NCBI GenBank assembly: GCA_012521335.1
Contig: JAAYMM010000072.1
Coordinates: 1 to 43,622, forward strand
Source: Bacillota bacterium
GTDB taxonomy: Bacteria; Bacillota; Limnochordia; Darwinibacteriales; Darwinibacteriaceae
Direction of reading: 5' to 3'
DNA: 43,622 nucleotides
A model generated the notes under the pieces. That model worked only from the letters and a program-made list of their open reading frames with translations, was not told the DNA's origin and did not search any database. The first letter of the stretch is position 1; each line of letters begins with the position of its first letter. This document shows, piece by piece, positions 8,419 to 39,064 of this stretch. Both the position numbers and the translations under genes were made by a program.

Positions 8419-9726
8419 ATGAGCGAATCAATTCTTCCGGAAAGGCTCCGGAACCAGCAGCAGAAACGCAAAACACCTGGGAAAATGCGGCAGCTCAGCT
8501 TAGCCCTGTTCACCATCGCGGCCATTGCCCTCATTGCCTACGGAGCCTACTACTTCTTCATGCCTAAGCAGGAGAGCTTCGTCCTCAACTTCTACACCTA
8601 TGCTTCTGTGGGCATGCAGGATTTCCTGGAAACGCTGACCGTAAAAGGGACGGTGATCCCAGAGAAAGTGGCCATTATCACTCCCAAGGTGGGCGGGACC
8701 ATTGAAGAGGTCTATGTCCAGGAAGGGCAGGATGTGGTCGCAGGGCAGCCTCTGCTCCGTCTGTATTCTGCCGACATCGTTAACGAGAAGAACCTGGCAG
8801 AAACGGAACTCAGTGAAGCCAAGGCCAAGCTCGCGGAGACGGGGATGATCCATGAACGCGAGCAGGAGACAGGGCGCTTGAAAGTGCTGGAGGCCAAGGA
8901 GAAGTTGGCTGCTGCCGAAAAGGATCTGGAGCTGCAGAAACTCCTTTACGAATACGGTACTATTCCCCGCGTAGAGCTGGAACGGGCTGAGCAGGCGGTG
9001 GAAGCGGCCAAACGCCTGGTCACCCAAAGCGAATCGGAGCTGGAGCTCTTGGTGCGCAAGCACGAAGCCGACCTGGCGGCCATCGCCAAGACCATCGCCA
9101 TCAACGAAGAGAAAGTGGCCAAGGCCCAGGAAAAAATAGACAGCTTTTTAGTTACTGCGGAGTTTGACGGGCGCATCCTGTCTTTGAAACTGCCCAACAA
9201 TCGGGTGGTCACAGCCCACCAGGAGCTGGGCGAGCTGGCTGATCTCACCCGCCAGGTGGTGGAGCTGCAGGTGTCACCCGGGCAGACGGAGCGCTTCGGC
9301 GTGGGCACTCCAGTCACGGTGAGTCTGGGGCAGGCCGAGTATTCAGGCGAGGTATCTTACATTGCCCCCCAAGCCAAACAGGGCACCGACGGGCCTACTG
9401 TTTTGGTGCGGGTGGATTTTTTGGAGGAAGTACCCCAGCTGCGTCCCAATAGTTCAGTAACGGCCAACATTCACCTGCATGTACACAAAGACAGCCTTTA
9501 CCTGCCGCGGGGAGCGTACTTAACCAGCGGTCAGCAGCTCTTTGTGTACGTTCTGGACGGCCATCGGGCCTTAAAACGCGAAGTGCAGTTTGGATTGCTC
9601 CAAGGCAACAGTGTTCAGATTCTGCGCGGACTGGAGCTGGGAGAACGGGTGATCATCAGCTCCTATGATGCTTTTCGCCACCTGGATGAGATCCAAATCC
9701 TGCCTGAGGGAGGACATGCGCTGTGA
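8419..9726 (+). CDS. Periplasmic adaptor (membrane fusion) protein of a MacAB-type exporter
   Basis: Adaptor of 435 residues expected to link an inner-membrane ABC transporter to a TolC-type duct. After a basic N-terminus there is one membrane anchor (about residues 32-54, LALFTIAAIALIAYGAYYFF). A first biotinyl-lipoyl half-motif follows (GGTIEEVYVQEGQDVVAGQPLLRLY), then a long helical hairpin (about 115-245), the second lipoyl half (ITxEFDGRI-like VTAEFDGRILSLKLPNNRVV) and beta-barrel/membrane-proximal domains. The ATG follows GGAGGAGGG. The gene overlaps the next by four bases, the first of six tightly linked genes. The paired ABC ATPase and FtsX-type permeases favour a MacA-like role over an RND adaptor. 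I see no substrate information. Confidence 0.88.
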   Translation: MSESILPERLRNQQQKRKTPGKMRQLSLALFTIAAIALIAYGAYYFFMPKQESFVLNFYTYASVGMQDFLETLTVKGTVIPEKVAIITPKVGGTIEEVYVQEGQDVVAGQPLLRLYSADIVNEKNLAETELSEAKAKLAETGMIHEREQETGRLKVLEAKEKLAAAEKDLELQKLLYEYGTIPRVELERAEQAVEAAKRLVTQSESELELLVRKHEADLAAIAKTIAINEEKVAKAQEKIDSFLVTAEFDGRILSLKLPNNRVVTAHQELGELADLTRQVVELQVSPGQTERFGVGTPVTVSLGQAEYSGEVSYIAPQAKQGTDGPTVLVRVDFLEEVPQLRPNSSVTANIHLHVHKDSLYLPRGAYLTSGQQLFVYVLDGHRALKREVQFGLLQGNSVQILRGLELGERVIISSYDAFRHLDEIQILPEGGHAL

Positions 9727-10418
9727 TCCGGCTAGAAGGAATCGTAAAGGAATACTACATGGGTGATGTGGTGGTGCGTGCCCTGGACAGTGTGGATGTG
9801 GAGATCCAGCGGGGCGAGTTTGTGTCCATTATGGGCCCTTCTGGTTCGGGCAAGTCAACGCTGCTGAACGTCTTAGGGGTTTTGGATCAGCCTAGTGCCG
9901 GCGCCTATTACTTAGAAGGCGTGGATATCACGCAGCTGCGGGACAGGGAATTGGCTAAGATCCGCAACCAGCACTTCGGTTTCATCTTCCAGGCCTACAA
10001 CCTTTTCCCCGAACTGACGGCCCTGGAAAACGTTATGGTACCTCTGATGTACGCGGGCAGGCCCAGGCGGGAAAGGCGGGAGCGCGCCGAAGAACTGCTC
10101 AACCGAGTGGGGATGGGGCACAGGCTGCATCACCTGCCCACACAGCTTTCCGGTGGTGAACAGCAGAGGGTGGCCATTGCCCGGGCATTGGCCAACAATC
10201 CAACCCTCCTTTTGGCTGACGAGCCCACGGGGAACCTGGCCACGGACCAGGGGGCTGAAATCATGGGCATCCTCCAAGAGCTGAACCGCCAGGGGACCAC
10301 CGTGGTCATTGTTACCCATGATCCGGCCATAACCGCCTACGGTAAACGTCTGCTGCGTCTGCGCGACGGGAAGATCATCTCCGACGGGCCCGTCAATCAA
10401 GTGGCCCAAGAGGCATAA
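9723..10418 (+). CDS. ABC transporter ATPase, MacB/LolD-like
   Basis: Soluble nucleotide-binding subunit of 231 residues. Walker A is GPSGSGKST (38-46), the Q loop is FIFQAYNLFPELTALENV, the signature is LSGGEQQRVAIARALA, Walker B is LLLADEPTGNL and the switch is VTHD. These, including ELTALENVMVPL, are typical of the MacB/LolD/FtsE group of mechanotransmission ABC systems. It starts at a GTG overlapping the stop of the adaptor gene. In E. coli MacB the ATPase is fused to the permease; here it is a separate protein serving two permeases encoded later in the operon. Confidence 0.93.
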   Translation: MIRLEGIVKEYYMGDVVVRALDSVDVEIQRGEFVSIMGPSGSGKSTLLNVLGVLDQPSAGAYYLEGVDITQLRDRELAKIRNQHFGFIFQAYNLFPELTALENVMVPLMYAGRPRRERRERAEELLNRVGMGHRLHHLPTQLSGGEQQRVAIARALANNPTLLLADEPTGNLATDQGAEIMGILQELNRQGTTVVIVTHDPAITAYGKRLLRLRDGKIISDGPVNQVAQEA

Positions 10419-10432
10419 GGGAGGAGCCGAGA

Positions 10433-11500
10433 ATGCGGAAGAGCGTGAGTCTGGTACTGATCGCGGCACTGCTTGCATGGTGGAGTATGAGCCTGGGAGC
10501 GGCAGCGGCGGAGCCGCTGGAGCTGACGGTGGAAGCTGCCACGGAACTGGCCCTGCAGTACAATTTGAGCTATCGGGTAGCTACTTTGGATTGGCAGAGC
10601 GCCCGGGCAAACCTGGAGCGGGCCCAGATCGTGGGCGATGCAGACATGCTCCGGGATGCTCAAAAGAAATGGGCCCAGGCCGAGAAAACTTACGCCGAAA
10701 AGACGCAGGAGCTTAAGGACTCGGTGCGCACCAGTTATCAGGAGCTGCTGCAGAGCGAGGCCAGTGTGGAAAACGCCCGGCTGGCCAAGGAAAGGGCCGC
10801 AAACCAGCTGGCCATGGATGAGAACAAGTTTAAGGCAGGCCTGTTGTCTTCCCTAGATCTTGAGCGCTCCCAAAACAGCCTCTTCGACGCCGAGCACCGC
10901 TACGAACGGGCGCTCATCGATCTGGCCACGAAGCGCATGCGGTTCAATGAACTGGTAGGGCTGCCTCTGGATACCGAGGTGGTTCTCACGGAACGCCTTC
11001 TCCTTTCCTTTGTACCTTTTGAGTGGGATTTAGAAACCTGCTATGAGCTGGCCCTGCCTCTGGATTCTGGGGTCGCCAGCGCCAGGGAAGCTCTGGCCAA
11101 AGCCCAAGAAGCGGTAGCTGCGGCCCAGAGCCCCTTTACGCCCAAGGTGGAGCTGGAAGAGGCTCTGGTCAATGAAGAAAAGGCCAGGATTCAGCTGGAA
11201 CAGGCTGAGCAGGCCCTGTATTTCCGCATCCGCAGCGAGTACTACTCCCTGCTGGATCAAGCCCACAATCTGGAGATGGCGCAGCGCAATATTGAGCTGG
11301 AGCGCAAAGCGCTGCAGGCCGAGAGAAGCAAGTATGAGGCGGGCGTGATCAGCAATGCCGAGATCGTGGCTAAGCAGGAAAGGCTTGCCCAACTGGAACA
11401 GGAGTACAGCGCAAACCTGCTGCAGTACAGCCTGGCCAGGGTGAAACTGCTGCAGGCCATGGGTAAACACGCAGAATCGGGTGAGCAGAATGAAAACTAG
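10433..11500 (+). CDS. TolC-family protein, apparently lacking the outer-membrane beta strands
   Basis: Exported protein of 355 residues with a signal peptide (cleavage likely after GAAAA, before EPLEL). It has two TolC-like helical repeats: LTVEAATELALQYNLSYRVA starts the first and WDLETCYELALPLDS starts the second. Long heptad-like helices include the family-typical KFKAGLLSSLDLERSQ and KYEAGVISNAEIVAKQ. Where TolC places beta-hairpins between paired helices, this protein has only short turns (AQIVGDADMLRDAQ and AQSPFTPKVELEEA). At 355 residues it is well below the usual 420-490. I infer an all-helical periplasmic tube or a partner of the next gene product. It is cotranscribed with the exporter. 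Signal peptide and repeats are visible; the lack of a barrel is inference. Confidence 0.78.
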   Translation: MRKSVSLVLIAALLAWWSMSLGAAAAEPLELTVEAATELALQYNLSYRVATLDWQSARANLERAQIVGDADMLRDAQKKWAQAEKTYAEKTQELKDSVRTSYQELLQSEASVENARLAKERAANQLAMDENKFKAGLLSSLDLERSQNSLFDAEHRYERALIDLATKRMRFNELVGLPLDTEVVLTERLLLSFVPFEWDLETCYELALPLDSGVASAREALAKAQEAVAAAQSPFTPKVELEEALVNEEKARIQLEQAEQALYFRIRSEYYSLLDQAHNLEMAQRNIELERKALQAERSKYEAGVISNAEIVAKQERLAQLEQEYSANLLQYSLARVKLLQAMGKHAESGEQNEN

Positions 11501-12848
11501 GCTGCGGTTGTGGGCAGGCGCGCTTGCGCTCTGCCTGGCCTTGGGCATCCCCCAGGGGGGAGAGGCGAGCACAGGTCAGCCCATCACGTTAGCAGAAGCC
11601 CTGGAAACAGCCCTAGAGCACAACACCAGCCATGCCCTGTTCCTGTGGGAGCAGGAGCTGGCCCAAAAACGAGAGGAAGCGAAGCGTCAGCCCGTAGTTG
11701 AGGCTCAGGTGAAACCTGCTCAAGTGCGGAATGGAGAGTGGGCAGATGCCGGTGGTTCAGTGACTATCACCGTTCCTTTAGGCCGGCACCTAGGTCTGTC
11801 CGGTGCGCTGGAGGTAGGCCTGGGGGAGTCGGGCTTAGATCTGAACCCAAGCGGAACCCTAACCCTGCGCTATGACTTCTTTGCGCTGTCGGAAGAGAAC
11901 TCAGCCGTGCTTGCGCCCGAAGAAACCCGGCAGCGCCAGGTGAACAGTCTGGTGCTTCAGGTTTTCGATCTCTTCGTTGACCTGCGCCAGGCCATAGATG
12001 AACGGGATTACAGACAGGCAGTTGTGGGCCACGTGCAGAAGCAGCTGGAAGCTGCCCAGCAGACTCCCGACTTTGACGATTTGGAGCTCCGCCGCAAGCT
12101 CCGCAGTGAGCTGCTGTCCCTAGCTGCTGCTGAAGAGAAGGTTAACCAGCTCCAGCTGCAGCTCCAGACGGTGCTGGGCTGGGCCGAAGTGTCCTTATTC
12201 GAGCCGCTGCTGGAAGTAGGTTCCCTGGATTGGGTGTTCTCCGAACCGGAGCTGCAGGAGGAAGTTTTTGCCGCGAGTGTGGAAGTGCGTACAGCGCGAA
12301 GGAATCTGGAGCAGGCCCAAGCCAAGCTGGATCTGGAGCGGAAGACCGGGGGCTGGCAGCTTACCGCCTCCGGCACTCTGTACGCTGGTGAAGTGCCGAG
12401 AGCGGAGCTCCCAACCCTTGAACAGCAAGCTGGAGGCCCGGTGAATTGGAACATCGGACTCAGCGCCTCCAAGACTCTCTATCCGCACAAGATTGTCCTC
12501 GAGGAGCTGGAGCTGGCGGTGGCCAAGGCTGAACATGAGCTGGCCGTACAGGAGAATGCGCTCCTAGGTAGGCTGCGCAGCAGCCTGCAGGCCATCAGAT
12601 CAGCGCAGAACCTCGTGGAGTCCCAAGGAGAGCTGCTCCGTGCCGCTGAAGAAGACTTGGCGCTGCGCCAGCGGCAGTATGCCGCGGGCCTGGTTACGGA
12701 GCTGCAGGTGGAGGAAGCGGCGCTGGCCGTGCACAAAGCAAGGAACGACTACTACCACCAGCAGTTGGCCTATGCCCGCAGTGTGCTGGCCCTTTGGGAC
12801 CTGTGCGGGCGCAGGCTGCAGGATATGGTATTTGCTATTGTGAGCTAG
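11490..12848 (+). CDS. TolC-family outer-membrane efflux protein
   Basis: Exported protein of 452 residues with a signal peptide (about 1-26). Two TolC repeats are seen: ITLAEALETALEHN opens the first and LQEEVFAASVEVRTARRNLE lies in the second. Unlike the preceding paralogue it keeps alternating amphipathic strands between the helices. These are GGSVTITVPLG, GLSGALEVGLG and GTLTLRYDFFA in repeat one, and GWQLTASGTLYA and NWNIGLSASKTLY in repeat two, as expected for a barrel-contributing protomer. The C-terminal half has RQRQYAAGLVTELQVEEAALAV, the family helix motif. ATG 11490 is chosen over GTG 11481; the start overlaps the previous gene. Its presence argues for an outer membrane in this organism. 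Confidence 0.82.
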   Translation: MKTRLRLWAGALALCLALGIPQGGEASTGQPITLAEALETALEHNTSHALFLWEQELAQKREEAKRQPVVEAQVKPAQVRNGEWADAGGSVTITVPLGRHLGLSGALEVGLGESGLDLNPSGTLTLRYDFFALSEENSAVLAPEETRQRQVNSLVLQVFDLFVDLRQAIDERDYRQAVVGHVQKQLEAAQQTPDFDDLELRRKLRSELLSLAAAEEKVNQLQLQLQTVLGWAEVSLFEPLLEVGSLDWVFSEPELQEEVFAASVEVRTARRNLEQAQAKLDLERKTGGWQLTASGTLYAGEVPRAELPTLEQQAGGPVNWNIGLSASKTLYPHKIVLEELELAVAKAEHELAVQENALLGRLRSSLQAIRSAQNLVESQGELLRAAEEDLALRQRQYAAGLVTELQVEEAALAVHKARNDYYHQQLAYARSVLALWDLCGRRLQDMVFAIVS

Positions 12849-12859
12849 GAGGTGCTGCA

Positions 12860-14158
12860 GTGTCTTTGCTGGATCAGTTCAAATGGTCGCTGCGCCACTC
12901 CCGACGCCAGCTTTTGGAATCAACTCTTGTGGTATTCGCTATCGGGCTGGGGATCGGCGTGATCATCACGGTCCTGACCATGTTCCTCCGTTTGGGGGAG
13001 GAGTACGGCCGGATTAGGGAAATGGATTACTTCCGCACCGTGGAGATTTTGGGCCGGGGAGAGTCTGCCCAGTGGCAGTCCACACCCATTACGGTTATCG
13101 GCAGCGAGCTGAACCGCGTAACCTGGGGTGCATCGCTGGACGAGGTGTTGGAGCTGCAGCGCCAGCTGCCCCCCGACATGTACGTCTTTGTGGAACTGTC
13201 TTTGCTGGCCGAAACCCATCTGCTGCCTCAGGAAGCAGATAGAGAAGACGGCGTTTGGTACGGATTCAGGGGCAATCAGCTCTTCATCTCCTGCACTGTC
13301 CCTGCCTATTTCGCCTTCAAGAATGTTGAAGCCGCACAGGGTAACCTCTTCCTACTCGACGATGTGCTCTCTGCCAGCCGGGTGCTGGTGCTCACCGACA
13401 CCCTGGCCCGGGACCTCTTTGGTGAGCAGAACCCCATTGGGCAGGTTGTCCCCTTGAGCTTCGGCCCAGGGCAGGAGGCGGAGGATTTCACAGTGATTGG
13501 CGTGCTGTCTCCGCCGGAAGGGGATATGTACTCCGTGTTCAACGAACGCCGCACGGCATGGGCTCCCATCACGGTCATGCCTTCCTACCGCCTCGGGTTC
13601 GATGATGCTACCAAGTTCTACAACATTTCCGTGGGTCTGGATGAGGATGAGGATTTGGCGGCAGCTGTGGAACTGGTGCGCCGTGAGGCGGCCCTCATGT
13701 GGGGGGAAGAGGCCATCGATGTGCGCAATCCCCTGGACAGCTGGCGGGAATCCATGCAGCAGGTGCAGCGCTACGCTCTGCTCATCGGCACGCTGGCCTC
13801 AGTGGGGCTCGTGATCGCCGTTATCAACATCCTCAACTTGATGCTGGCGCGGCTGCTGAAGCGCACCAAATCCATCGGTTTGAGCATGGCTCTGGGCAGC
13901 TCAAGGGCCCAGGTGTTCCGCCAATTCATGCTGGAGGCCGTTGTCCTGGGGCTGGCGGGAGCTGTTCTAGGCATTCTCCTGTCCTTCGGCTTTTCGGAGA
14001 TCGTGAAGCAGGAGTACGGGGAGTTTGCTGCCGGCAGGCTGAGCACCCGCTTGGGGTTGGGGATCGGCCTGGGCTTTTTGATCAGTCTCTTCTTTGGAGT
14101 CTACCCGGCCTACCTGGGTTCACGCGTTAATCCCGTGGACGCACTGCGCATTGACTGA
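12860..14158 (+). CDS. MacB-like FtsX-domain ABC permease (first)
   Basis: Membrane subunit of 432 residues with MacB topology. One N-terminal transmembrane helix (about 20-43) is followed by a large extracytoplasmic domain (about 45-310, the MacB periplasmic core type with LFGEQNPIGQVVPLSFGPGQ). Three C-terminal helices form the FtsX domain, with the cytoplasmic loop RTKSIGLSMALGSSRAQVF and the ending YPAYLGSRVNPVDALRID. The GTG at 12860 follows AGGAGGTG; an in-frame upstream ATG at 12794 would overlap the previous gene and lacks a ribosome site. It probably forms a heterodimer with the next gene product. Confidence 0.9.
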   Translation: MSLLDQFKWSLRHSRRQLLESTLVVFAIGLGIGVIITVLTMFLRLGEEYGRIREMDYFRTVEILGRGESAQWQSTPITVIGSELNRVTWGASLDEVLELQRQLPPDMYVFVELSLLAETHLLPQEADREDGVWYGFRGNQLFISCTVPAYFAFKNVEAAQGNLFLLDDVLSASRVLVLTDTLARDLFGEQNPIGQVVPLSFGPGQEAEDFTVIGVLSPPEGDMYSVFNERRTAWAPITVMPSYRLGFDDATKFYNISVGLDEDEDLAAAVELVRREAALMWGEEAIDVRNPLDSWRESMQQVQRYALLIGTLASVGLVIAVINILNLMLARLLKRTKSIGLSMALGSSRAQVFRQFMLEAVVLGLAGAVLGILLSFGFSEIVKQEYGEFAAGRLSTRLGLGIGLGFLISLFFGVYPAYLGSRVNPVDALRID

Positions 14159-14172
14159 GGGGGGAAAGCACG

Positions 14173-15423
14173 ATGCTGGAAACGCTCAAGTTCACCTTCC
14201 GGATAATCAAAAAGCGGCCGCTGCGCTCTCTGCTCACCATTCTCCAGGTAGGACTGGGAGTGTGGATTGTCGCGGTGATCTTGTCCCTGAACTTCGGGGC
14301 CACAGGCAGGCTCGACGCAGTGGAGAACGCTTACGGGAACTCCCTGGCCAAGCTCTCCGTATCCCGTTCAGAGGAGTTTGGTGGCGAGAGGATGATGGTG
14401 CGGACGGCCAGCGCCTTCCGCTACGAAGACCTGGCCAAACTTAGGCAGAGCGAGTACATTGACCAGGCTTTTGTTTTCCAGGACATGTGGATGCAGCGCA
14501 TTTTGGTGGACGGCACCGCTTACTCGATCCAGACCGTTGCCGAGACCACCTCTGAATACGCTGAGGCCATGGGGCTGGAACTGGTGGAAGGGCAGTTCTT
14601 CACCCGTGCAGATGAGGAGCAGAAGAACCGGGTTGTGCTGGTATCTGAGGTCATAGCCAAGCAGCTCTTTCCCAACCAGTCGGCCGTAGGGAAGATCATC
14701 GATTTGGGCAACTTCGGGGAAGGGAACATGGAGTTTGAAGTGATTGGGGTGTACAAACAGCAGTCTCCGCTTCTGAGCTTCTTTATCAGCGAAGTCTATC
14801 TGATCTTTCCCCTGGGCACTACCCGGGCGTGGCTGTCACTGGATTCGGAGTTCGGCTACCAGAACATCTACATCAAATCCAAACCTGGCCGCATCTATGA
14901 AGCGGTACAGGACGCCCGTACTCTACTGGCCGACCGCGCCCTGGACGATCTGGAGGTTGATGGGCAGTACCTGCACGAAGCCAACCGCTGGATGGCTGAG
15001 CAGGTCGCCACGATCAGCTTCTTTATGGGGGCGTTTGCCTTTATCGCTGTGTTGGTAAGTGCCATCGGGATTCTCAGCATCATGCTGGTGAGCGTGGTGG
15101 AAAGAACCCGCGAAATCGGCCTCAGGCAGGCCTTGGGTGCTTCCAAGGCTTCCATCATCGGCCAAATCCTCAACGAGTCTTTGGCCTTTTCCCTGGGCGG
15201 TTCCGTCCTGGGGTTAGTGGTAGCCGCCCTGACGGCCCGCAGGCTGCTCAGCGCCATTGTTGAGGAGATGATGTACTCCCAGTTCGGCGATGTGGGCGGG
15301 CTTCATCCCCTGGCTGCGGTGCTGGCAGTTGTGGTGGCTGTGGCCATGGGCCAGCTCTTTGGCCTTTACCCCGCATGGCAGGCGGCCAAGCTGGCACCTG
15401 TAGATGCTCTGCGGGAAGGATGA
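14173..15423 (+). CDS. MacB-like FtsX-domain ABC permease (second)
   Basis: Membrane subunit of 416 residues with the same architecture as its neighbour: one N-terminal helix (about 19-42), an extracytoplasmic MacB-type domain containing LVEGQFFTRADEE and NQSAVGKIIDLGNFGEG, and three C-terminal helices. The FtsX loop RTREIGLRQALGASKASI and the ending YPAWQAAKLAPVDALREG are classic. GGGGGGAAAG precedes the ATG. The two permeases are diverged and probably pair around the shared ATPase dimer. It is the last gene of the exporter operon; a sigma-70 promoter for the next operon begins 18 bases later, and I see no terminator in that gap. Confidence 0.92.
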   Translation: MLETLKFTFRIIKKRPLRSLLTILQVGLGVWIVAVILSLNFGATGRLDAVENAYGNSLAKLSVSRSEEFGGERMMVRTASAFRYEDLAKLRQSEYIDQAFVFQDMWMQRILVDGTAYSIQTVAETTSEYAEAMGLELVEGQFFTRADEEQKNRVVLVSEVIAKQLFPNQSAVGKIIDLGNFGEGNMEFEVIGVYKQQSPLLSFFISEVYLIFPLGTTRAWLSLDSEFGYQNIYIKSKPGRIYEAVQDARTLLADRALDDLEVDGQYLHEANRWMAEQVATISFFMGAFAFIAVLVSAIGILSIMLVSVVERTREIGLRQALGASKASIIGQILNESLAFSLGGSVLGLVVAALTARRLLSAIVEEMMYSQFGDVGGLHPLAAVLAVVVAVAMGQLFGLYPAWQAAKLAPVDALREG

Positions 15424-33405: not shown

Positions 33406-35859
33406 TTGACTGTCTTGCACCTTGTGCCTAGTACATATCTGCGTCAAACCAGGCGCCGCTTGTCTCGGGAGGGGCAGCCCGCTTTGGCGGCAACGCTAGG
33501 GGGGCTGGCGGCCCAAATCCTGCGCGCCGGGATGGTATCCTACCAGGAGAACCGCCTGTTGGAAGGGGTGGCCGTCTGGCAGTGCGTGCAGGATCTGGAG
33601 GAGCGCCTGGAATTTTTCGCGCCCATCGCCCAGTTCAAGGGCTTCAGGCAGGAACTGCAGTGGTTGTTCGGCCGCTTGGATTACGGTGAGGATATCTACG
33701 GAGCCATGCCCCAGCCGGGGCGCGCGGAATTGGAGCTTCTCCACAGGCGCTACCATGAAATTCTGGAGGAGCACGGAGTTGTTACGGCTCCAGGCCGCCT
33801 CAAACTGGCGCTGGAGCTCATGGGGCAGGGACGGGTGCTCCCCGAAGTGGACACCGTGATCCTGGAGGGGTTGGGCGAACTCAGGCCTCTGGAACAGGCC
33901 TTTGTGGCCGCGTTTACCGCAGGGCGCCAGGTAGAAGTGGTCAAGCGGCAGGCGCAGGACCCTGTGCTCAAGGTGACTAAGGCGCAGGATCCTGCGGATG
34001 AAGTGGAGCTCATGGCCCAAGCTCTGCGCCGCCAGATTGAGCGGGGCACCCCCCTCGAGGCCGTGGCCGTTGCCTTTCCCAGCCCCGAACAGTACCTGCC
34101 CCTGATCATCCCCACCTTTGCCCGCTTGCACATTCCCTGGCAGGCACCGGGGACCAGCCTGCGCAACACTCCCTTGGGCAAGACGCTGCTCATCCTCATC
34201 GCCGGGACGCTGGCTGATTGGGACAAGCGTTCTTTGGAGCTGCTCACCGCGCCGGGCTGGGGTTTTCCTTTTGGCCTGAGCGGGGAAGCGCACAGGCTGC
34301 TGCGCTTGGCTCCGCCCTTGAAGGGGCTGGCCAGCTGGCGCAGTTACCTCGGGCAGCAGGAGGGGTGGGAGCCTGTTTTCCAGGTTATGGCGGAGGTGGA
34401 GGCTGAACTCAGGCTGCGCCCCCTGTCCGAGTATGGGGCATGGCTGGAAAGCCTTCTCGATAGGCTTGATCCCCAGCTGTGGGTCACCCCGGCAGACAGT
34501 GTGGAAACCTGGGCTGAGCTGGTCAAAGCATGGGATGGCCTGCTGGATGTGGCTCAGACCCTGCGGCGCTTCAGCTGCGCCCTGCCTCCGGCACAGTTCC
34601 TGCAGCTCTTGGAAGATCTTCTAGGCAGCTATCTGATCCGCCCCCGGCGCGTGTTCAGCGAGCGGGTCCAGGTGCTGCGCACGGACCAGCTGGGCGGGTT
34701 CGTTTACGACTATCTGTTTGTGGGCGGCCTGGTGGAAGGACAGTTTCCTCCCCACGGGCGGGCCCACTGGCTTACGAAGGCACGGGCTGAGGTGGAAAGG
34801 GAGCAGCTCTTTACGGCTCTTACTGGATCGGCCCGGCATGTTTTTCTCTATTACCCCGAGGTGGATCGGGAGGGTAAGCGGAACCTGCCTGCCACGGTTC
34901 TTCACCCTGCTGAAGCAGAGGAAAAGGCTGCCGCCCGGGAGCCTGTACACTTTCCTTCGCTGTTTATCGGCAGCGGGCTGCTGAACGATGCGGATCTTCT
35001 GGAGCAGCTGAGGGAGAAAGTGCTCAAGCAGGGGCTCAGCGTTTCCCAGCTCAATACGTACGCCAAATGCCCCTACCGTTTCTTCTGCGAGTACGTCTTG
35101 AATCTGGAGGCGCTGGAGGAAGAGTCCTTAGAGCTGGATGCTAGAGAAAAGGGGATCATCGTCCACAGCGTGCTGCGCACCTTTTGGGCAAGACACCTGG
35201 AAGGCCCCCTGCCTTCCTTGGAGGAGGCCCAGCTGCTGCTGGAAGAGCTGCTCACCAGTGCCTACCGGGAAAGGGGGTTTGCGCCCCCCGCGGATCTGGT
35301 CCGGGCTCTGCGCTTTTTTATCCGGCAGGATCTCCAGCGGGTACAGAAGGGTTTCCGCCCAGCCTACTTAGAAAGGGCCTTTGGGCAGGTAGTGATCCCC
35401 AGTGCCCACGGCCCCGTGCCCATGCGGGGCAGGATCGACCGCATCGACTGGCATCCCGATGGAGCTTACGTCCTTTATGACTACAAAACCGGGGATCCTC
35501 CCAGCAACGAGTCTGTGCGGGAAGGTAAGGACGTTCAGGTCGCCGCTTACCTGGTGGCTGCCCAGACCCTACTCCCCCAAGGCCGAGCTGTGGGCGCGGC
35601 CTATTACCCGATCGACGGCGGTTCCCCGCGGGGTGTTTTCCACCAGGATTACCGTGACGAACTGGCCGCGGCCAGAGGCAGCACCATGGCTGGGGAGGAT
35701 TATCTTCAGCAGCTGGCCAAGTTCGAGCAGATCTTGAGCGAGCTGGTGGACTCTATCCTGGAGGGCGCCTTCCCCGTGGAACCGGCCGACTCCCGGGTCT
35801 GCAGCTACTGTCCCTTCCAGGGCATCTGCCGCAAGGAGGTGGGCCTAAGTGGAATTTAA
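33406..35859 (+). CDS. addB: AddB-like helicase-nuclease subunit with Fe-S nuclease, no Walker A
   Basis: Subunit of 817 residues of an AddAB-type complex that resects double-strand breaks and loads RecA. The N-terminal 540 residues follow the inactive-helicase fold of AddB but lack any GxGxGKT near the start (MTVLHLVPSTYLRQTRRRLS). The C-terminal nuclease has VHSVLRTFW (His), GRIDRIDW (about 675), LYDYKTGD (about 692) and QVAAYLVAAQ. Fe-S cluster cysteines are C555, C799, C802 and C808 (C, then C-x2-C-x5-C). B. subtilis AddB is about 1150 residues and retains a Walker A, so this is a short form. It starts at TTG after GGGGAGGTGAGG and overlaps addA by 11 bases. Confidence 0.85.
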   Translation: MTVLHLVPSTYLRQTRRRLSREGQPALAATLGGLAAQILRAGMVSYQENRLLEGVAVWQCVQDLEERLEFFAPIAQFKGFRQELQWLFGRLDYGEDIYGAMPQPGRAELELLHRRYHEILEEHGVVTAPGRLKLALELMGQGRVLPEVDTVILEGLGELRPLEQAFVAAFTAGRQVEVVKRQAQDPVLKVTKAQDPADEVELMAQALRRQIERGTPLEAVAVAFPSPEQYLPLIIPTFARLHIPWQAPGTSLRNTPLGKTLLILIAGTLADWDKRSLELLTAPGWGFPFGLSGEAHRLLRLAPPLKGLASWRSYLGQQEGWEPVFQVMAEVEAELRLRPLSEYGAWLESLLDRLDPQLWVTPADSVETWAELVKAWDGLLDVAQTLRRFSCALPPAQFLQLLEDLLGSYLIRPRRVFSERVQVLRTDQLGGFVYDYLFVGGLVEGQFPPHGRAHWLTKARAEVEREQLFTALTGSARHVFLYYPEVDREGKRNLPATVLHPAEAEEKAAAREPVHFPSLFIGSGLLNDADLLEQLREKVLKQGLSVSQLNTYAKCPYRFFCEYVLNLEALEEESLELDAREKGIIVHSVLRTFWARHLEGPLPSLEEAQLLLEELLTSAYRERGFAPPADLVRALRFFIRQDLQRVQKGFRPAYLERAFGQVVIPSAHGPVPMRGRIDRIDWHPDGAYVLYDYKTGDPPSNESVREGKDVQVAAYLVAAQTLLPQGRAVGAAYYPIDGGSPRGVFHQDYRDELAAARGSTMAGEDYLQQLAKFEQILSELVDSILEGAFPVEPADSRVCSYCPFQGICRKEVGLSGI

Positions 35860-38800
35860 GCCAACTGAGCGCCAACAAGAGGCCATCACCACCATCCACT
35901 GCCCGGTTGCGGTTGTGGCCGGGGCAGGCTCGGGCAAAACCAGGGTGTTGGTGGAAAGGTATCTCTATCTGCTGGACAAAGGCGTTAAGGTGGATGAAAT
36001 CGCAGCCATCACCTTCACCAAGAAGGCCGCCCAGGAGATGAAAGAACGCCTGCGCAAAGCCAGGCCGGAACTCATCCCCGATCTGGAACGGGCCCAGATC
36101 TCCACTGTCCACAGCCTCTGCCAGCGCATCATCCAGGAGCATCCTCTGCAGGCCCGGATGGATCCCCGCTTTCGGGTGGGAGAAGAGTGGGAGACCCGGC
36201 TGCTGCTGGCCGAGGTGATTGAGGAAGTGGTGCAGGAAACGGCCCCCCCCAGTGACCTGGGCACCTTTGGGGATGTCTGCTCTGTGGTGCTGGGCTTGTA
36301 TGAAAAAATGCTCAGCAAGGGCGATCTCCGTTTTGAGCGGGCCTTCAGCGAACCTCTCGCCGAGTTTCCCCTGCTGCCGTTGGAAGCCGAAGTGAAGAAG
36401 GCTTTAGCGATTGTGCCCAGCACGGTGCGGCAGCGGGAAGTCTTGGCGGAACTGGCCGAGGAATGGCCTTACTTGGTAGAGCTGCTGCGCCTGCCCGATG
36501 ACAATCTGCGCCTGGAGGCCCTGGAGATCCTGCGCCGGCAGGTGGGCAAGATTCGCGGCAAGCTTGCCGAGGAGGTTAGGGCCTTGAAAGAGCTCATCGC
36601 CTTTGCCGAAGAGCTGATTGCAGAGGGCAAGGGCAGGGCAGTGGTTACCTACCTGGGCCAAGTGCTGCAGCGGATCCATGCGCTCTACTCCGAACGTAAA
36701 CGCCTGGGCGGACTGGTTGACTTCAACGACCTGGAGCGGATTACGTGCGAACTGCTGCAGGATCCCCTGGTGGCGGCGGACTATCCTTTTTCCCATGTTC
36801 TGGTGGACGAGTTCCAGGACACTAATCCCCTGCAGAAGAGAATAGTGGATGCCTTCACAGCCCGCGGCGCCCTGCTCTTTGTGGTGGGAGATCCGAAGCA
36901 GTCCATCTACCGTTTTCGCGGCGCCGATGTGGGGGTCTTTCTCCAGGCTGAGCAGGAAGTTCAGGGGAAAGGCCGGCGCATTGTGCTGGACACCAACTTC
37001 CGTTCCACTCCCGAACTGATCCAGTTTGGCAACGCGTTCTTCGCCAAGCTCTTGGAGGGAGAGCTGATCGGCTTTGACGCCAGTTGTCACCACAGAACGC
37101 ACGCCCACCGCCCCTGTGTGAGCATCCTCCAGGTGGCCGCCGATGATCTGGCTGTGGACGAAGCCCGGGCCCTGGAAGCCCGGCAGATCGCCTTGAAGAT
37201 CCGGGAACTGGTGGACAGCGGACGGTACAGATACGAGCAGATTTCTATTCTCTTCCGGGCCATGACCAGTGTGTACATCTATGAGCGGGCCTTGAAGGAA
37301 GCGGGAGTACCCTATGTGAACCTGAGTGGGCGCGGTTTTTATTCCAAGCAGGAGATCCAGGATGTGCTGCACTACTTCCGCTGGCTGGAGGATGCCGGTG
37401 ATGAAGTGGCCAGGCTGGCTGTGCTGCGCTCGCCCTTTTACCTCATCTCTGACTCAGGACTATTCTGGCTGCGCCAGGGCCGCGAGGACAAGCTCAGCCC
37501 CAAAGAGCAGGCAGCACTGGCCCAGGCCGCGCAAGACTACGCTGCGCTGCAGCTTTTGGCCAAGCATCGGCCCGCCCCCGAGGTGATCACGGAGCTGCTC
37601 CGGCGCACCAACTACGTGGAAAAGACCTGGAAGCTGCCCTTTGGCCCGCAGAAGGTGGCCAACATTGAAAAGCTTTTGGAGCAGAGCTGGGATCTTTTTG
37701 CCCGCAACGTGTACACCATCCCCGAGCAGGTGAGGTACCTGCGCCTTTTGGCGCGGGAGGCCCAGAAGGAAGGGGAAGCGCAGCTCGATGCGGAGCATGC
37801 CGATGTGGTGGTTCTGCGCACGATCCACAGCGCCAAGGGTTTGGAGTTTCCCGTAGTGTTTTTGGCGGACACCAGCGCCGCGGCGGTGCGAGCCCCGAAA
37901 GGCAAGGCGCTCTACCATCCGGAGGTTGGGCTTGCCTGGCGGGGGATGCGCGATTACAAACTGATTCAGGAGCAGGAAAAGGCGGCGGAGATCAGCGAAT
38001 CCAAACGGCTGTTGTACGTGGCCTTCACCAGGGCCCAAGAAGAACTTTACTGGTGTGCCCGCAGAGGCAGGGAGGTCACAGACAGCTGGTGGAGTTGGCT
38101 GCAGGCCCATCTGGAATCCATTGACCCGCAGCTCTACCAACTGGTGCCCGGCGAGCTGCCGCCGCTGGAGCCGCAGCCCCAAGGAGAAACAGCGCGCCTG
38201 GAACTGTCCCGTTATCAACCCCTGCCTCCCCAGTACAGTCAGGTGGTCTTTTCCGTGACGGAGCTCATGAACTATGACCGCTGCCCCCGCTATTACTACC
38301 TGCGCCATATCTTGGGCCTGCCCGAAAGGAGTAGGGACAAGCAGGGAGCCTTGGGCGCTTCCAGCGGCCTCAGCGCCACAGAACGGGGGAGCATTGTGCA
38401 CCGGGTGGTAGAGCTGATCAAAGATCCAGCGGCCTTGAGCGTGCTGGTGGAACAGGCCGCCGCCCTGGAGGGGGTAGAGTTGGATGCCCGGCAGAGGGCC
38501 CAGTTGGAAGAGATGATCCTCCCTTACCTGCGCAGCGAATTCTTCGCCCGGGTGCAGGCTGAGCCCGCCGGCCAGCTGTACAAAGAACGCAGTTTCTTCC
38601 GGGCCGCGGGGGACTTTATCGTCAACGGCCTGGTGGACCAGGTTTTTGTGGGGGAAAAGGGTGTTGAAGTTGTGGACTTTAAGACGAATTGGATCACCGC
38701 GGATCAGGTACCAGAGGTGGGCGCGGCCTACGCTGTGCAGCTGCGGCTGTATGCCTGGGCCATGGCCCGGGAGCTCGGGCGGCCAGCGGTGAGCTCCCAG

Positions 38801-39064
38801 GCTTACTTCCTGATCCCCAACCGCCTGTATGCTTTGGATCCTGAGCTGCTCGATGCCGACGAAACAGAGCAGTGGATCGTAGACACCTGTCAGCGCATTA
38901 TCCGCGGCGCAGAATTGGGGGCTCAGGCCTTTCTCCCCCGGGACAACTGCGCGCTGTGCCGCCAAAATTACTACTGCCTGCATGCTTGGAACGCTGGTAA
39001 GGATGGCAGGTTTGGGGAGACTACAGATGTTGAGGAAGATCTGCTGGAGGAGGAACTGCTATGA
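35849..39064 (+). CDS. addA: AddA-like UvrD-family helicase-nuclease
   Basis: Motor subunit of 1071 residues. Superfamily 1 motifs: Q-motif TERQQEAI, I VAGAGSGKT (24-32), Ia AAITFTKKAAQEM, II VLVDEFQDTNPLQ (about 318), III VVGDPKQSIYRFRGADV, IV LDTNFRS, V ADVVVLRTIHSAKGLEFPVVFLAD and VI LLYVAFTRAQEELYW. The C-terminal RecB-like nuclease has RGSIVHRVVEL, LVDQVFVGEKGVEVVDFKTNW and QLRLYAWAM. It also has C812 (YDRCPRYYYL) and C1034, C1037, C1043 in the C-x2-C-x5-C arrangement of an Fe-S nuclease, which is known from AddB rather than AddA. GTG start within the end of addB, after AAGGAGGTG. Its stop overlaps the next start (ATGA). Confidence 0.9.
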   Translation: MEFKPTERQQEAITTIHCPVAVVAGAGSGKTRVLVERYLYLLDKGVKVDEIAAITFTKKAAQEMKERLRKARPELIPDLERAQISTVHSLCQRIIQEHPLQARMDPRFRVGEEWETRLLLAEVIEEVVQETAPPSDLGTFGDVCSVVLGLYEKMLSKGDLRFERAFSEPLAEFPLLPLEAEVKKALAIVPSTVRQREVLAELAEEWPYLVELLRLPDDNLRLEALEILRRQVGKIRGKLAEEVRALKELIAFAEELIAEGKGRAVVTYLGQVLQRIHALYSERKRLGGLVDFNDLERITCELLQDPLVAADYPFSHVLVDEFQDTNPLQKRIVDAFTARGALLFVVGDPKQSIYRFRGADVGVFLQAEQEVQGKGRRIVLDTNFRSTPELIQFGNAFFAKLLEGELIGFDASCHHRTHAHRPCVSILQVAADDLAVDEARALEARQIALKIRELVDSGRYRYEQISILFRAMTSVYIYERALKEAGVPYVNLSGRGFYSKQEIQDVLHYFRWLEDAGDEVARLAVLRSPFYLISDSGLFWLRQGREDKLSPKEQAALAQAAQDYAALQLLAKHRPAPEVITELLRRTNYVEKTWKLPFGPQKVANIEKLLEQSWDLFARNVYTIPEQVRYLRLLAREAQKEGEAQLDAEHADVVVLRTIHSAKGLEFPVVFLADTSAAAVRAPKGKALYHPEVGLAWRGMRDYKLIQEQEKAAEISESKRLLYVAFTRAQEELYWCARRGREVTDSWWSWLQAHLESIDPQLYQLVPGELPPLEPQPQGETARLELSRYQPLPPQYSQVVFSVTELMNYDRCPRYYYLRHILGLPERSRDKQGALGASSGLSATERGSIVHRVVELIKDPAALSVLVEQAAALEGVELDARQRAQLEEMILPYLRSEFFARVQAEPAGQLYKERSFFRAAGDFIVNGLVDQVFVGEKGVEVVDFKTNWITADQVPEVGAAYAVQLRLYAWAMARELGRPAVSSQAYFLIPNRLYALDPELLDADETEQWIVDTCQRIIRGAELGAQAFLPRDNCALCRQNYYCLHAWNAGKDGRFGETTDVEEDLLEEELL

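Follow-up and report, generated by a model that had tools for sequence, protein, structure and literature searches.

The addB–addA gene pair of the window (the whole stretch of DNA that was analysed, 43,622 nucleotides) probably encodes an AddAB enzyme in which both nuclease domains are of the iron-staple type, a second [4Fe-4S] cluster locking the nuclease domain of AddA. The Fe-S cluster of AddAB is commonly taught as a feature of AddB. Our reading derives from sequence comparison, which established the position of four cysteines in AddA, their homology to the AddB ligands, their conservation and all-or-none occurrence, compensating swaps of ligands, and the integrity of the catalytic motifs.

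The gene pair and its family assignment

The window belongs to a draft genome of 1.72 Mb in 93 contigs. Two loci of its phylum (L167, L168) branch next to Thermoanaerobacterium (L019) in the tree of AddA-like proteins, so the phylum is presumably Bacillota. Both genes lie on the forward strand, addB first, and their open reading frames overlap by 11 bases. The product of addB (33406..35859; 817 amino acids) is a short form of the protein, without the Walker A motif and with a PD-(D/E)XK nuclease domain, and that of addA (35849..39064; GTG start, 1071 amino acids) is an SF1A helicase with a C-terminal PD-(D/E)XK nuclease domain. AddA matches the Pfam models of the UvrD N- and C-domains and, at residues 801–1043, PF12705, which is also matched by AddB at residues 544–809. 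The closest NCBIfam model for AddA is TIGR02785 (addA_Gpos), with 338 bits against a cut-off of 708, and the best named model for AddB is TIGR03623, the best AddB score being 134 against a cut-off of 300. Neither protein reaches the curated cut-offs, which are thresholds for naming and not functional features of the family, and the pair is therefore a divergent member of AddAB.

The features characteristic of AddAB are nevertheless present in the pair. AddA combines a C-terminal PD-(D/E)XK nuclease with an SF1 motor predicted to be active by its Walker A motif (AGAGSGKT, residues 24–31; 35918..35941), and the adjoining AddB has a helicase-like fold, a nuclease, and a four-cysteine staple. In the order to which the window belongs, AddA is encoded in all 37 genomes and AddB is detectable in 36, normally directly upstream. 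None of the 35 AddBs of the order carries a Walker A motif; we do not count the motif as a requirement for membership in AddAB, because the motor is carried by AddA. The AddBs of class relatives carry GRAGxGKT, and those of the order are approximately 350 amino acids shorter. Given the AddB-like fold and the active AddA motor, the pair of the window is AddAB.

Elsewhere in the window, HlyD-like, outer-membrane efflux (OEP/TolC-like), and MacB-like proteins are encoded in one gene run (8419-15423), which suggests that this Bacillota lineage possesses an outer membrane.

Cysteines flanking the two nuclease domains

The nuclease domain of AddA with its staple spans residues 784–1071 (38198..39061). 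Its predicted staple ligands are C812 (38282..38284), in the context MNYDRCPRYYY, and C1034, C1037, and C1043 (38948..38950, 38957..38959, and 38975..38977), in the context NCALCRQNYYC, that is, one plus three cysteines spanning the domain, as in iron-staple nucleases. Between them lie H851 of the GSIVH nuclease motif (38399..38401), the nuclease core GLVDQVFVGEKGVEVVDFK with D930, D943, and K945 (38627..38683), whose D and K columns are invariant in an alignment of 51 sequences, and the QLRLY motif with Q964 and Y968 (38738..38752), identified by motif and alignment. The catalytic columns G, H, D, D, K, Q, and Y of the RecB family are all invariant in the alignment of the AddA nuclease. With the Walker A motif, H851, D930, D943, K945, Q964, and Y968 intact, both the motor and the nuclease of AddA should work. 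A fifth cysteine, C1014 (38888..38890), located on the helix preceding the Cys loop, is found in 36 of 37 AddAs of the order and, despite this conservation, is uninvolved in the ligand swaps described below.

The staple ligands of AddB are C555 (35068..35070), within NTYAKCPYRFFC, and C799, C802, and C808 (35800..35802, 35809..35811, and 35827..35829), within RVCSYCPFQGIC; the nuclease core, recognized by its motif, comprises D678, D692, and K694 (35437..35487). C555 is conserved in 34 of 34 AddBs of the order, C799 and C802 in 33 of 33, and C808 in 30 of 33. Serine replaces C808 in three genomes (G008, G009, G015), which lie in the clade that lost C1043 in AddA. C561 of AddB (35086-35088), six residues past C555, is invariant as well (34 of 34 AddBs of the order). 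An earlier note on this DNA had reported the four cysteines of AddB and those of AddA flanking its nuclease, and we reproduced the positions in both proteins, as well as the frame, length, and coordinates of AddA.

The same note had pointed to a shared C...C-x2-C-x5-C layout, and profile comparison places the cysteines of both proteins on the same columns: in the hhalign alignment of the AddA and AddB nuclease profiles (probability 99.8%, E 3e-28), C812 of AddA falls onto C555 of AddB, and CALCRQNYYC onto CSYCPFQGIC. Aligned with AddB of B. subtilis, the AddB profile falls onto ACPFSHF, opposite C555, and CTYCAFKSVC, the region known to bind the cluster (PMC3466216, PMC7311471). The solved AddA of B. 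subtilis ends at position 212 of the 264 profile positions and has neither the C-terminal helix nor the Cys loop. In shuffled AddA sequences, C-x2-C-x5-C occurred within the last 86 residues in 14 out of 200,000 shuffles, and, taken together with the conservation, this rules out the four cysteines as a product of chance.

The AlphaFold2 (AF2) model of the AddA nuclease domain has pLDDT 85.5 and pTM 0.80; the Cys loop is its least confident part before the tail (mean pLDDT 68 for block 251-260). Among the Foldseek matches of this model, AddA of B. subtilis is the top one by E-value, and AdnA of AdnAB has the best TM-score (0.60 over 283 columns, near full-length); AddB, Cas4, Dna2, and 3L0A, a zinc protein, are among the other matches. 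The model of AddB (pLDDT 86.4) retrieves AddB of B. subtilis first (E 7.9e-33) and AdnA next (3.0e-25).

Conservation, ligand swaps, and distribution of the AddA staple

Conservation in close relatives had been set beforehand as the point on which the cysteine claim would stand or fall, and it was found: C812 and C1034 are present in 37 of 37 AddAs of the order, C1037 in 34, and C1043 in 33, the losses being matched by a gained cysteine at position 815. Irrespective of spacing, which is C-x2-C-x5-C in the family of the window and C-x2-C-x3-C in others of the order, the staple cysteines number four in 36 of 37 AddAs and five in the remaining one (G019, with an adjacent extra cysteine). C1043 is missing in four AddAs (G008, G009, G010, G015), and C1037 is replaced by serine in three (G026, G028, G030); exactly these seven, and no other AddA of the order, have C815, so that the motif reads CPRC where the others have CPRY, CPRH, or CPRR. 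C815 lies three residues, approximately one helical turn, from C812. The association of C1037 or C1043 loss with C815 gain (seven of seven vs. none of 30) has a Fisher probability of 9.7e-8 with kinship ignored; in the helicase-only tree of the order, well-supported branches force three separate swap events, too few for a sign test to reach significance. Loss of a C-terminal ligand paired with gain of C815 would be expected of a metal-cluster site and seems otherwise hard to explain, and such exact bookkeeping of ligands would be predicted if selection maintained a four-ligand metal site. In one further genome of the set (G025, locus L141), addA is interrupted by an in-frame TGA, which may be a sequencing error or reflect a broken gene.

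The staple is not private to the genome or genus of the window, as demonstrated by its order-wide and wider occurrence. Among 249 sampled genomes of the phylum, at least 41 from outside the order have an AddA nuclease match running through the loop, and all 38 such AddAs that were inspected, from approximately 25 families, have the four cysteines. Their AddB partners, where the complete sequence is legible, are all four-cysteine proteins with looser spacing; outside the order, a four-cysteine AddA nearly always stands beside a four-cysteine AddB. An apparent loss of the AddB staple with the AddA staple kept (in Negativicutes and Planctomycetota) turned out to be an artefact of over-strict spacing, as the AddB motif is often C-x3-C-x5-C or longer, and among the loci compared there is none with a staple in AddA alone. 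Four-cysteine AddAs were also found in Acidaminococcaceae, Thermoanaerobacterium, Tissierellia, and Tumebacillus, and, in other phyla, in Pyrinomonadaceae (Acidobacteriota), Aquicultor and Thermoleophilia (Actinomycetota), two cyanobacteria, one planctomycete, and one deltaproteobacterium. AddAs without the loop include those of the B. subtilis type, of Chloroflexota, and of Erysipelotrichaceae, as well as those of all 16 sampled class-mates from the sister orders. In Peptoniphilus mikwangii (L008), both AddA and AddB are without staple cysteines. By these sequences, the AddA staple is widespread, broader than the earlier note stated, and what the order of the window adds is the natural swaps of ligands.

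The N-terminal cysteine and the loop occur together: outside the order, 59 AddA-like proteins have both, 42 have neither, and two (L018, L021) are exceptions, with four (L160, L031, L056, L029) scored by reading the sequences. Across 120 AddA-like proteins, an unrooted helicase-only tree calls for 11 changes of the trait, supported branches forcing six or more of them. The UvrD-Cas4-like builds (L031, L034, L040, L043, L057, L072, L074) branch apart from AddA in the tree and likely belong to the UvrD-Cas4 fusions.

In three loci (AddBs L178:2671-5352, L181:2775-5420, and L185:2758-5418 from genomes G208, G234, and G258), the D..DxK catalytic residues are gone from AddB but its four cysteines are kept, and the AddA beside it keeps both an intact nuclease and four cysteines. 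Judged by their motifs, such dead-nuclease AddBs would fit a cluster role apart from catalysis.

The predicted second cluster and comparison with known systems

In AddB, the cluster acts as a staple that pins the nuclease domain, and both the binding of ends and stability depend on it (PMC7311471, PMC4176176, PMC7430649). It has been used as a sequence signature (PMC7430649, PMC3466216, PMC7311471), and iron-staple domains are described as rare (PMC7430649). By analogy, C812 at the entrance of the AddA nuclease domain and C1034, C1037, and C1043 in its C-terminal loop would bind one cubane [4Fe-4S] cluster, which would tie both ends of the domain to each other and support the channel feeding the AddA-side strand to the active site (H851, D930, D943, K945, Q964). 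We infer that the metal site is [4Fe-4S] and that, like the cluster of AddB, it is likely structural and required for DNA binding. The two-cluster AddAB suggested in the earlier note is thus supported as a prediction, the putative ligands being homologous in position, conserved in the order, and swapped compensatingly in three lineages.

The main rival, that the four-cysteine site of AddA holds zinc instead of an iron-sulfur cluster, appears unlikely but deserves attention: 3L0A, which the fold search with the AddA model also retrieved, binds zinc by four cysteines in the same arrangement (PMC3466216), and the swapped two-plus-two layout (CPRC...CxxC) resembles classical zinc sites. Against this, the AddB that pairs with AddA is an Fe-S protein, as are AddB, Cas4, and Dna2, the closest structural relatives sharing the one-plus-three layout, and most AddAs compared retain that layout. 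It is considerably less probable that the cysteines are a conserved relic, cofactor-free and serving packing only. A nuclease of this family can indeed work without the site, as AddA of B. subtilis and those of the sister orders have no loop, but a relic would neither hold the count at four through three swaps nor lose both ends together.

The earlier note had also considered a form between AddAB and AdnAB, a reading favored by AdnA, which matches the AddA nuclease domain best in structure over its full length. We consider it highly improbable and abandoned it: the AddB fold matches AddB best, none of the AddBs of the order has Walker A, the UvrD N-terminal domain is absent from AddB, AddA matches AddA by sequence, and the trait is scattered across many lineages rather than situated at one transition.

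If the two-cluster reading is correct, the absence of the loop from AddA of the B. subtilis type may be a secondary simplification and the textbook AddAB a reduced form. It is conceivable, although we hold this only tentatively, that AddAB was ancestrally a two-cluster enzyme, that the AddA staple was lost in several lineages, the B. subtilis type among them, and that one ligand of the AddA cluster moved three times in the order of the window. If a substantial fraction of Bacillota, along with members of other phyla, does carry an AddA staple, current models of end binding and two-cut-site control by AddAB are founded on a reduced enzyme. Nature supplies enzymes with both clusters, with the AddB cluster only, with swapped ligands, and with a dead AddB nuclease that keeps its cysteines, a series of ready-made controls by which what the cluster does for structure, for DNA binding, and for catalysis could be told apart. 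The literature surveyed on the staples of AddB, Cas4, Dna2, and Bad and on UvrD-Cas4 fusions places none in AddA; the founding papers on AddAB and AdnAB lie outside this survey and may mention one.

AddAB of B. subtilis (PDB:3U4Q, 4CEJ) shares with the pair of the window the gene order addB–addA, an AddA motor with Walker A and a PD-(D/E)XK nuclease, and an AddB fold with the Fe-S nuclease. It differs in that its AddA stops before the C-terminal helix and the Cys loop, whereas AddA of the window has four staple cysteines, and in that AddB of the window is approximately 350 amino acids shorter and lacks Walker A. In AdnAB, the cluster is known only from AdnA. The mycobacterial AdnAB (PDB:6PPR, 7SJR) similarly has two nuclease domains, that of AdnA giving the best match in structure to the AddA nuclease over its full length, and both its subunits have UvrD-like motor domains (PMC13309787). 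In contrast, AddB of the window has no motor domain (neither a match to the UvrD N-domain nor Walker A), and the pair is therefore not AdnAB.

The iron-staple nucleases Cas4, Dna2, and Bad have, like AddA, one plus three cysteines around the same nuclease core, but they are single or differently fused proteins rather than the subunit that supplies the 3'-5' motor to a resection heterodimer. In the UvrD-Cas4 fusions of PF12705, as in AddA, an SF1 3'-5' helicase is joined to a Cas4-like four-cysteine nuclease (PMC5704561). These fusions have been reported as stand-alone proteins or from defence settings (PMC5704561), whereas AddA of the window is encoded in an addB–addA operon and belongs to a different clade.
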